36,193 bases of DNA from Pseudalkalibacillus salsuginis (GTDB taxonomy: Bacteria; Bacillota; Bacilli; Bacillales; Fictibacillaceae), in contig NZ_JAKJHW010000015.1 in the NCBI RefSeq assembly GCF_021646685.1, positions 1-36,193 of the forward strand, given 5' to 3'. The number at the start of each line of letters is the position of its first letter. Position 1 is the stretch's first letter. This document shows, in pieces, positions 1,633-26,566 of the stretch. The position numbers were made by a program, and so were the translations under genes. The notes beneath the pieces are model-generated. The model had not been told where the DNA came from, searched no databases, and worked only from the letters and a program-made list of their open reading frames with translations.

Positions 1633-1641
1633 TTTGACCCG

Positions 1642-1650
1642 TGATATAAT
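1642..1650 (+). promoter_or_regulatory. Extended -10 promoter before the rRNA methyltransferase gene
   Basis: TGATATAAT at 1642-1650 is a perfect TATAAT with the TGn extension. The -35 region is poor (TTGTCT at 1620-1625), as is common for extended -10 promoters. It overlaps the end of the pdaA terminator and lies about 30 bases before the start codon. Confidence 0.55.
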
Positions 1651-1681
1651 AGGTCCGATTATAAAAGGACGGAGTGTATGT

Positions 1682-3064
1682 ATGAAATCAACTGAAACAA
1701 AGCTGAAAGCAGGAGACACCATCCGGTTAGCCATCAAACGGTTAGGGATCAACGGAGAAGGCATCGGTTTTTACAATAAAAAGGTCACCTTCGTAACAGG
1801 AGCGCTTCCGGGGGAAGAAGTGATCGCAAGGGTGACGAAACCACTGCCTAACCGTATTGAAGCTGAAATGGTATCGATCAAAAAGAGATCGAAGGACCGT
1901 GTCAAACCGCCTTGCCCGATTTATGAACAATGCGGCGGCTGTCAGCTTCAGCATTTACGTTATGAAGCGCAGTTGAAAGAAAAGAAGGATATCGTACGGC
2001 AAGCATTCAGCCGATATACTGATTTTGACGCCCATCACTTGCCTTTGAAAGATACGATCGGGATGGAAGACCCATGGAATTACAGGAATAAAAGCCAGTT
2101 CCAGGTGGCTAAAAAAGGTGCAAGTGTGCTGGCTGGATTGTACGGTCTTGGCTCCCATAAACTGATCGATCTATCGAATTGTATGGTCCAGCATCCACAA
2201 ACAACAAGTGCCACGAATACGGTAAAAAAGATTTTAGAGGACTTGAACATCTCAATTTATAATGAGCGGGAACGGTCGGGGATTGTAAGGACCATAGTCA
2301 CCCGTGTAAGTTTCAGGACAGAAAAGGTTCAAGTCGTGTTAATCACGACTCAGCGGGAGATTCCGAAAAAGGATTTGCTTATAAAGGAAATGAAGAAGCG
2401 ACTTCCAGAAGTCACGTCCATTCTCCAGAACATCAATGGCCAGAAAACCTCACTGATATTTGGAGATGAAACCATTCATTTAGAAGGCGATCAGACGATT
2501 CAAGAAACGTTAGGTGATCTTTCCTTCGAATTATCAGCAAGAGCTTTCTTCCAATTGAATCCTGTACAGACAGTCAAGCTTTATAACGAAGCCCGGAAAG
2601 CAGCGAAACTGACAGGGGAAGAGAAGGTGGTCGATGCTTATTGCGGTGTTGGGACGATCGGATTGTGGCTTTCAGAACGTGCTGGGGAGGTACGCGGTAT
2701 GGATGTCATTGAAGAATCGATCAAGGATGCTAACGAAAATGCCGCACGTCACGGAATTAATAATGCAACTTACGTAACCGGGAAAGCAGAAGAACTGCTG
2801 CCGAAATGGCTGAAGGAAGGGTGGAAACCGGATGTCATCGTCGTCGATCCACCAAGGACCGGATGCGATATGACCTTTTTGAAGACGGTGGCAAAAATCC
2901 AACCGAAACGGATGGTATATGTTTCTTGCAACCCATCCACATTGGCGAAAGATGTGGACTATCTTACCAAACACAGCGGCTTTAAAATCGAACGACTCCA
3001 GCCTGTGGATATGTTTCCACATACAGCACACGTCGAAGCCATCGCCACCTTAGTAAGAAAGTAA
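1682..3064 (+). CDS. rlmD: 23S rRNA (uracil-5-)-methyltransferase, RlmD/RlmCD (TrmA/RumA) family
   Basis: This enzyme family transfers a methyl group from SAM to C5 of uridines in 23S rRNA. The 460-residue protein has an N-terminal TRAM RNA-binding domain (about 5-65). Four cysteines for a 4Fe-4S cluster follow (Cys78, Cys84, Cys87, Cys167). The SAM motif is [10 protein letters not shown] (318-327), then VVDPPRTGC (387-395), with the catalytic Cys416 in [11 protein letters not shown] 1682 lies seven bases after AAAGGACGGAG; the frame is open further upstream but without a binding site. B. subtilis has two paralogues, YefA (RlmCD) and YfjO. The pdaA neighbour suggests the YfjO position, so the exact target uridine is uncertain. 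The palindrome and T-run at 3068-3138 terminate it. Confidence 0.9.
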
Positions 3065-3067
3065 CAT

Positions 3068-3138
3068 GTGTACCAGGCACCGATCGGGACTCCTTGGGGC
3101 ACAAGGGTTCCGGATCGGTGCCTGGTACACTTTTTTTT
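3068..3138. repeat. REP-like palindrome, copy 2, doubling as terminator
   Basis: GTGTACCAGGCACCGATC at 3068-3085 pairs perfectly with 3113-3130 across a 27-nt loop, followed by eight Ts (3131-3138). It shares its core arm with the element at 642-700. The T-run suggests it ends transcription of the upstream methyltransferase gene. A weaker inner pairing in the loop (CCTTG with CAAGG) may extend the stem. Confidence 0.8.
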
Positions 3139-3147
3139 ATCAACAGT

Positions 3148-3260
3148 TTATCCACACAGTTGGGATAAATTGATATGAGGTCTGACAAGTTATTCACGTT
3201 TTTATTCACATTGTCCACATGTTCGATACACGTTTATACACATATCCACATTCATCCACA
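3148..3260 (+). promoter_or_regulatory. DnaA-box cluster (seven 9-mers, same strand)
   Basis: Seven matches to the DnaA box TTATNCACA lie within 113 bp, all on the plus strand. Exact matches are TTATCCACA (3148), TTATTCACA (3202) and TTATACACA (3234). One-mismatch copies are TTATTCACG (3190), TTGTCCACA (3211), ATATCCACA (3242) and TCATCCACA (3252). The last boxes are head-to-tail with one- to two-base gaps or a one-base overlap. The region contains no gene and lies between two convergent genes. No dnaA or dnaN gene is nearby, so this is not oriC in the usual layout. DnaA binding is inferred from sequence only. Confidence 0.7.
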
Positions 3261-3272
3261 GGGGATAATCAA

Positions 3273-3308
3273 AACAAAGGAGACTTGCCGGGGAAGGGAC
3301 AAGTCTCC
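3273..3308 (-). terminator. Terminator after yfhD-like gene
   Basis: GGAGACTTG at 3279-3287 pairs perfectly with CAAGTCTCC at 3300-3308. On the minus strand the stem is followed by TTTGTTTT (3271-3278 region). It lies 19 bases beyond the yfhD stop codon. Confidence 0.7.
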
Positions 3309-3326
3309 TGTTCAGTCTTACAGAGG

Positions 3327-3485
3327 TTATTTACGTCTTGCGCGACGATCAGCCGCCCGTGCTCTCTCCTGCGCTTGCAGATCATCAGAGTCGGCAAGCT
3401 CTTGGGAAAACTCGACATCACGACCATCAGGTGCGATGTTCTGTTTGTTCTGTGCTTGGTTGCGAGAACGTTTGTCTTTTCCCAT
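3327..3485 (-). CDS. yfhD: YfhD family small protein
   Basis: A 52-residue, very hydrophilic protein of unknown function. The N-terminus is basic and Asn/Gln-rich (MGKDKRSRNQAQNKQN). A conserved DVEFSQELAD segment follows at about residues 23-32, then an Ala/Arg-rich helix (AQERARAADRRARRK). This pattern matches my memory of the YfhD family of Bacillus, and yfhD lies near yfhF and recX in B. subtilis too. The start at 3485 follows AAGGAGGG with eight bases. A hairpin (GAGAGG-TCAT-CCTCTC, 3512-3527) lies in its leader. No catalytic motif or membrane segment is visible. Confidence 0.75.
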   Translation of the reverse strand: MGKDKRSRNQAQNKQNIAPDGRDVEFSQELADSDDLQAQERARAADRRARRK

Positions 3486-3855
3486 GAGTGAACCCTCCTT
3501 AGACAAATGGTGAGAGGATGACCTCTCGTTTATTATGATGTACAATCGTCAGGGAACTATAAGAGGAAAGAATGGGTAAACGTGTGAAAAATTGTAGTCA
3601 TCCACATGTGTATAACTGGATTGGTTTGATGTACCTCAAGACATTTTTAATGATTAAAGTCCTGGTCTGCGCGATTATCCTTAAAGTCCGCGTAATAATT
3701 TAAATAATAGTGTAACTAATCCTGAAAATGGCGATACCATCCACAACATTCTCGGATTCATTCCTTCAATCAATCTCCATTGGCTAAATCTATTTGAGCC
3801 CATTAAAAGACCTGACCCCACCTGGGCCAGGTCATCCATCATACAGTATACGTTT
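3486..3855. other. Intergenic region between yfhD and the GNAT gene
   Basis: This 370-base stretch has no convincing gene. It holds the yfhD leader hairpin (3512-3527), two abutting DnaA-box-like sites (TCATCCACA at 3598-3606 on plus and TTATACACA at 3607-3615 on minus) and the GNAT terminator (3803-3833). A 26-codon minus-strand frame ending at 3681 (MNPRMLWMVSPFSGLVTLLF...) has a crowded GAAGGA directly before its ATG and lies beyond the terminator. I do not call it a gene. Confidence 0.5.
3803..3833 (-). terminator. Terminator after GNAT gene
   Basis: GACCTG at 3809-3814 pairs with CAGGTC at 3828-3833. On the minus strand TTTTAA follows. It begins about 20 bases past the GNAT stop codon. 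Confidence 0.6.
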
Positions 3856-26455: not shown

Positions 26456-26566
26456 CAGTGCCAGGCACTTTTTGTAAACCCTTGGTATGTATAGCTTTTC
26501 AAATGGTGCCAGGCACCGTTTTGAACCTCAACGGTACCAAGGGGTTTGCTTCGGTGCCTGGCACTG
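26456..26566. repeat. REP-like palindrome, copy 3 (compound)
   Basis: Three palindromic cores: GTGCCAGGCAC (26458-26468), GGTGCCAGGCACC (26505-26517) and GTGCCTGGCAC (26554-26564). The outer two lie in larger complementary arms (CAGTGCCAGGCAC with GTGCCTGGCACTG), and AACCCTTGGTA (26477-26487) pairs with TACCAAGGGGTT (26535-26546). The whole folds as one ~110-nt structure between two divergent genes. The core is close to the GTACCAGGCACC arms at 642 and 3068. Confidence 0.8.

Follow-up and report, generated by a model that had tools for sequence, protein, structure and literature searches.

Clusters of DnaA boxes that lie outside oriC have been described in Bacillus subtilis and Escherichia coli, and the gcp/ydiF region of B. 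subtilis, a cluster between convergent genes, is the closest described system to the locus presented here. Table 1 of PMC4447404 lists it as region 4, a high-affinity DnaA region that prefers ATP-DnaA, with apparent Kd values of 0.15 uM for ATP-DnaA and 0.33 for ADP-DnaA and a recovery 16-fold higher with ATP-DnaA at 55 nM. The same source places gcp/ydiF and sda as the B. subtilis sites that most prefer ATP-DnaA, and considers its regions too few to define what gives a site this preference. According to passages in two reviews (PMC5295017, PMC13220808), removing six B. subtilis clusters together leads to early initiation; a passage in the former regards the contribution of such clusters to initiation in B. 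subtilis as not significant. The importance of these clusters is thus disputed in the two sources, which also present as an open question by what means initiation is restrained in B. subtilis-like bacteria, where Hda, SeqA, datA and DARS are lacking. In E. coli, datA, DARS1 and DARS2 are likewise non-oriC clusters of DnaA boxes, the DARS cores with fixed spacing. At datA an IHF site accompanies the boxes and ATP hydrolysis is promoted, whereas DARS sites release ADP from DnaA; DARS2 is described as requiring IHF and Fis (PMC5742627).

The window analyzed here is a stretch of 36,193 nucleotides from Pseudalkalibacillus salsuginis, one contig (C9) of a 4.29 Mb genome in 19 contigs. It contains a dense group of DnaA boxes between the convergent genes rlmD and yfhD, which we compare with clusters at the same locus in relatives, with other clusters of the same genome and with the described systems.

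Results

The DnaA-box cluster between rlmD and yfhD

The genes rlmD (+) and yfhD (-) converge on the gap that holds the cluster, and the features of this region, in window coordinates, are as follows.

1634..3064, + strand: rlmD, 23S rRNA (uracil-C5)-methyltransferase (TIGR00479, 555.9 bits); the listed start is mechanical and the true start may be further in
3068..3130, + strand: long hairpin with a T run after it (-53.2 kcal/mol, z -11.9), probably the terminator of rlmD; it is at the same time one copy of a palindrome that is repeated in the window
3137..3260, + strand: DnaA-box cluster with boxes at 3137, 3148, 3190, 3202, 3211, 3234, 3242 and 3252 (offsets -11, 0, 42, 54, 63, 86, 94 and 104, with box 3148 as zero), from motif scan, shuffles and conservation in relatives
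3148..3242, + strand: core of the cluster with tsaD/ydiF spacing, at offsets 0, 42, 54, 63 and 86, within 1 bp of the template, offset 12 missing
3278..3309, - strand: yfhD terminator hairpin (terminator scan and folding), strongly conserved in eight loci of the genus
3327..3485, - strand: yfhD, YfhD-like protein of 52 aa (Pfam PF14151, 49.8 bits)
3583..3615, mixed strands: three boxes upstream of yfhD, of which the last two abut and face each other, an abutting pair conserved in 5 of the 8 loci of the genus

A motif scan of the window found seven TTATNCACA boxes on the + strand of 3148-3260, three exact (3148, 3202 and 3234) and four with one mismatch (3190, 3211, 3242 and 3252). This recount agrees with the initial annotation, which had reported seven boxes of this composition on a single strand within 113 bp. 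An eighth box with one mismatch (TTATCAACA) begins at 3137 on the + strand, just beyond the range covered by that annotation, and three more, also unmentioned there, lie across yfhD from the cluster at 3583 (-), 3598 (+) and 3607 (-). Boxes 3202 and 3211 abut exactly, and boxes 3234 and 3242 share one base. The inverted box known from the yfhD loci of other groups was not seen in the window's own species. The description of the gap as a convergent one was also borne out; the cluster is flanked by a terminator on either side, and a promoter scan of 3137-3260 found no promoter-like site.

The hairpin at 3068-3130 was not flagged by a simple terminator scan, and folding energy did pick it out. 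It belongs to a palindrome with arms GTRCCAGGCACC that is repeated at 642-700, 3070-3128 and 26458-26564 of the window; the window contains 8 arm matches where 0.08 would be expected, one copy doubles as the rlmD terminator hairpin, and the palindrome resembles a mobile or REP-like repeat. Across the gap, the yfhD terminator hairpin, including its loop, is nearly identical over the eight genus loci while the adjoining spacers have diverged, a degree of conservation that exceeds the need of a terminator. An RNA element at the cluster was considered and set aside, the five Rfam matches each scoring far under the gathering score and the RNA fold giving z -0.29.

The density of boxes exceeds what sequence composition provides. 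The stretch 3136-3264 holds 8 boxes against a mean of 0.69 and a maximum of 5 in 2000 dinucleotide shuffles of the same stretch, and the densest 129 bp in shuffles of the whole window (n = 40) had 3. The motif was matched 140 times over 17 loci, among them that of the window, compared with a best of 53 and a median of 3 among 400 permuted motifs. The initial annotation had proposed scoring boxes genome-wide against chance, and the outcome was divided: exact boxes number 154 against 142 for a reversed-motif control, which places single boxes near chance, whereas clustered boxes stand above it, with close pairs at 14 vs 1 in tandem, 8 vs 1 facing and 3 vs 1 divergent. The locus is a dense group of DnaA boxes outside oriC in excess of chance, which is one of the features expected of a cluster of the B. 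subtilis kind. It is not oriC itself; dnaA lies on contig C17 and the window is contig C9, and the box layout is not that of oriC.

Conservation of the cluster in relatives

All seven other genomes drawn from the same genus keep the cluster, and across the eight genus loci the conservation of box columns is 0.83 vs 0.56 for spacers, in an alignment partly anchored by the boxes. We surveyed the 700 bp 3' of yfhD in relatives, scoring a cluster where 200 bp held 5 boxes or more, and took a 700-bp stretch beyond the opposite end of the gene as the control. A cluster was present in 46 of 89 loci, which represent 12 of the 39 families sampled and include 28 of 28 loci of the window's own family, and in 0 of 89 control stretches. 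The annotation had suggested aligning the rlmD-yfhD gap of related species, and the refuting outcome that it named, boxes not conserved in close relatives, did not occur. The 39 families are those placed among the better-scoring yfhD matches, in a draw that contains at least 47 families; the f1g2 loci are included in the survey count and absent from the geometry tests described below. A YfhD-family match was present in the B. subtilis genome, which served as a control of the family search. Because the cluster is kept in 12 of the 39 families, it is old, having been lost or never gained in the other 27, and because it is missing at yfhD in those 27 it is not essential. In four stretches (L088, L089, L098 and L130) the cluster remains with yfhD and rlmD was not found within the fetched stretch, and at L018, from an Alkalihalobacillus macyae metagenome-assembled genome, the cluster adjoins rlmD with another gene separating it from yfhD. 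Neither gene is therefore needed, and a tie of the cluster to rlmD rather than yfhD was rejected.

A box geometry common to yfhD and tsaD/ydiF

Spacing between boxes is conserved among yfhD loci. One locus from each of 13 groups, chosen by hand out of 37 loci, was compared with 2000 random placements; a tandem pair at 9 bp occurred in all 13 groups (null mean 3.06), a + then - pair at 22 bp in 10 (null mean 0.76), and a + then - pair at 13 bp in 8 (null mean 0.81, with its own null maximum of 6). The highest count for any pair type over the random placements was 9, which only the tandem 9 bp and the + then - 22 bp pairs exceed. Tandem pairs at 43 and 52 bp (6 groups each; null means 2.1 and 2.0, maximum 7) and at 22 bp (4 groups; null mean 2.4) were not clear alone.

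The same spacing recurs at a second convergent gap. In 22 of 24 cases the stretch 3' of tsaD carries a cluster with 5 or more boxes; YdiF adjoins tsaD in 20 of 23 fetched stretches, as it does in the window's own genome, and the two tsaD stretches that have no cluster (L187, L223) belong to the three without YdiF. Same-strand offsets of 0, 12, 42, 54, 63 and 85 recur in the tsaD/ydiF clusters, a pattern that was first spotted by eye and then tested. We propose these approximate offsets as a gcp/ydiF-type geometry, and the window cluster has it: 5 of the 6 template offsets are fitted, a number never reached in 3000 random placements. At the L018 yfhD locus the offsets are 0, 12, 54, 63 and 85.

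In the cross-locus comparison, all 22 whole tsaD/ydiF clusters served as templates, and each of 14 groups contributed one yfhD locus picked at random; three draws were made from the 36 loci that remained after L095 (4 boxes) was dropped. The yfhD loci gave 4.05-4.08 matched boxes vs 2.89-2.91 for random placements (sd 0.08; z 14.7-15.5). Applied to oriC clusters (10 loci less L192, which ends at a contig edge), the same test showed no excess (2.92 vs 2.94, z -0.2), and an oriC-like layout was accordingly rejected for this geometry; the excess was small for ywlC clusters (2.69 vs 2.47, z 2.5) and rlmH clusters (3.03 vs 2.84, z 3.4). Clusters of at least 5 boxes entered this test, which kept 22 of 24 tsaD, 8 of 16 ywlC and 10 of 14 rlmH loci. 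An earlier run with 10 hand-picked tsaD loci had given z 16.8, with 2.0 for rlmH and 3.6 for ywlC; the 22-locus result is the trustworthy one. Outside the boxes, the window's yfhD cluster and the tsaD cluster of the same genome agree at 5 of 32 positions, showing that the spacing is kept and the intervening sequence is not. The geometry at yfhD is oriented opposite to that at tsaD, a reading made by hand from the strands, so the direction of the boxes relative to the replication fork is probably not needed.

Distance from oriC

The 12 cluster-bearing relatives in a comparison of 32 genomes all have yfhD nearer to oriC than to the terminus, at 40-91 degrees from dnaA; the window's own genome, in 19 contigs, gives no distance. 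The 20 genomes lacking the cluster lie at 50-179 degrees (p 2.5e-4 with kinship ignored; p 0.011 by family means). Four genomes stood outside this test: G019 (cluster-positive, about 56 degrees), G028 (no locus fetched), G037 (about 69 degrees, with a cluster farther than 700 bp away) and G079 (dnaA on a different contig). G044, with 4 weak boxes, was scored as absent, and G066 is in three contigs. Three genomes that have no cluster are also near dnaA, at 50, 54 and 65 degrees, leaving no clean separation. Because of these cases, and with kinship uncorrected, a position near oriC may at most be a requirement for the cluster and does not suffice for its presence.

Other clusters in the genome and their B. 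subtilis counterparts

We examined eight stretches around paired or repeated boxes in the window's own genome. Clusters lie on both sides of dnaA, in the convergent tsaD/ydiF gap, and at htrA-rlmH, ywlB-ywlC and sda-yqeG; the other pairs are isolated. We take gcp to be tsaD and yydA to be rlmH, and the names ydiF and sda are likewise those that we presume for the B. subtilis regions. With these names, the clusters of the genome correspond to DnaA-bound regions in Table 1 of PMC4447404. In that source yfhD is not among the top 20 DnaA-bound regions of B. subtilis (the larger table holds 269) and is not named in the main text. The cluster at yfhD is unreported as far as is searchable, in a literature search that found no report of it and whose reach ended short of the original cluster paper; the kind of cluster is already known from B. 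subtilis.

Like gcp/ydiF, the yfhD cluster is a non-oriC cluster between convergent genes, and its box spacing is that of the gcp/ydiF counterparts in this order, which are the sequences that the comparison covered. It differs in its place in the rlmD/yfhD gap, in the lack of matching spacer sequence and in its narrower distribution. The ywlC, yydA (rlmH) and sda/yqeG clusters resemble it as dense groups of DnaA boxes outside oriC with counterparts in the same genome, but they lie upstream of genes and have spacings of their own. The cluster upstream of rlmH (L113 4386-4532; L228-L240) has a recurring spacing of about 13, 8 and 13 bp on one strand, and the region upstream of ywlC (L114 1717-1916; L201-L215) shows, in several families, a recurring pattern of + then - pairs spaced by about 12, 33 and 45 bp. 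The sda-yqeG cluster (L118 952-1050), a single locus, fits 4 of the 6 tsaD/ydiF template offsets (P 0.051). No group of at least 4 boxes was found in L137, a stretch chosen for jag/trmE, whose presence there is unconfirmed. The initial annotation was right in interpreting the yfhD boxes as a non-oriC cluster; the conserved spacing, the likeness to tsaD/ydiF and the counterparts in the genome had escaped it.

Discussion

We consider that the locus belongs to the B. subtilis kind of DnaA-box cluster, shares its construction with gcp/ydiF and would hold ATP-DnaA away from oriC, and assign this reading a probability of roughly 0.7. Several observations weigh against it: the cluster is missing at yfhD in most of the sampled families, genomes that lack it overlap in distance from oriC with those that have it, small excesses over random placement occur also with rlmH and ywlC clusters, one review gives such clusters little weight, and the window's own species does not show the inverted box of other groups. 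A chance run of A+T-rich box-like words that have no function would fit the chance level of single boxes genome-wide, and is highly improbable given that shuffles and permuted motifs fall far short of the observed density, that conservation over 12 families contradicts it, and that the box geometry is conserved within yfhD loci and in common with tsaD/ydiF. Transcriptional control of yfhD by DnaA, like that of sda, with boxes flanking the gene repressing or activating it, perhaps via looping, is an unlikely explanation that we keep in view because of the three boxes upstream of yfhD at 3583-3615. The retention of their abutting, facing pair within the genus and the tendency of the cluster to accompany yfhD where rlmD was not found nearby (the four stretches above) are in its favor, but the main cluster sits at the 3' end of the gene past its terminator, beyond the genus most loci have one upstream box or none, and at L018 the cluster adjoins rlmD with another gene before yfhD.

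A DARS- or datA-like site would alter the nucleotide state of DnaA by exchange or hydrolysis and not hold the protein. In its favor are the fixed geometry of the boxes in this cluster outside oriC and the inverted boxes that occur at yfhD in relatives. The comparison was made with the DARS1 and DARS2 cores, using the map positions that we take to be theirs in E. coli K-12. These three-box cores, with box I opposite to boxes II and III, read +14-12-, unlike the window cluster, which was therefore rejected as a member; the common yfhD pattern is +9+13-11+ or all +, and two yfhD loci come near the DARS pattern (L089, +13-12-; L169, +13-13-). In its treatment of these sites, review PMC13220808 gives datA and DARS as absent from B. 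subtilis, which is without IHF. We regard such a site as improbable here. The initial annotation had offered titration or reloading of DnaA; titration is favored, purely by analogy, and reloading found no support, the DARS core spacing being different.

If the yfhD cluster does hold ATP-DnaA, binding would be cooperative with the ATP form preferred, as suggested by the behavior of the gcp/ydiF region in B. subtilis. Replication of the site would come fairly early, doubling its copies after initiation, and the doubled site would hold DnaA away from oriC, leaving less free there and delaying the next start. The position between two terminators may shield the DnaA complex from RNA polymerase. As relatives keep the box group and its spacing, the cluster probably helps decide when copying of the chromosome may restart.

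The part that may be new is the fixed geometry common to two loci. A bolder reading, which we put forward tentatively and consider somewhat doubtful, is that a single nucleoprotein complex selective for ATP-DnaA is specified by a fixed code, with boxes at roughly 0/12/42/54/63/85. This code would occupy two separate convergent gaps, that of tsaD/ydiF and that of yfhD, and over an order of Bacillota only its geometry would have been kept. Spacing-dependent sinks elsewhere are plausible. The yfhD clusters constitute a second class of loci, in dozens of genomes, with the geometry of the ATP-preferring gcp/ydiF region; they supply regions for defining ATP-DnaA preference and give exact spacings to break. 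If the fixed-code reading is true, control of initiation in these bacteria would use built sinks for the active initiator and not a loose density of boxes.
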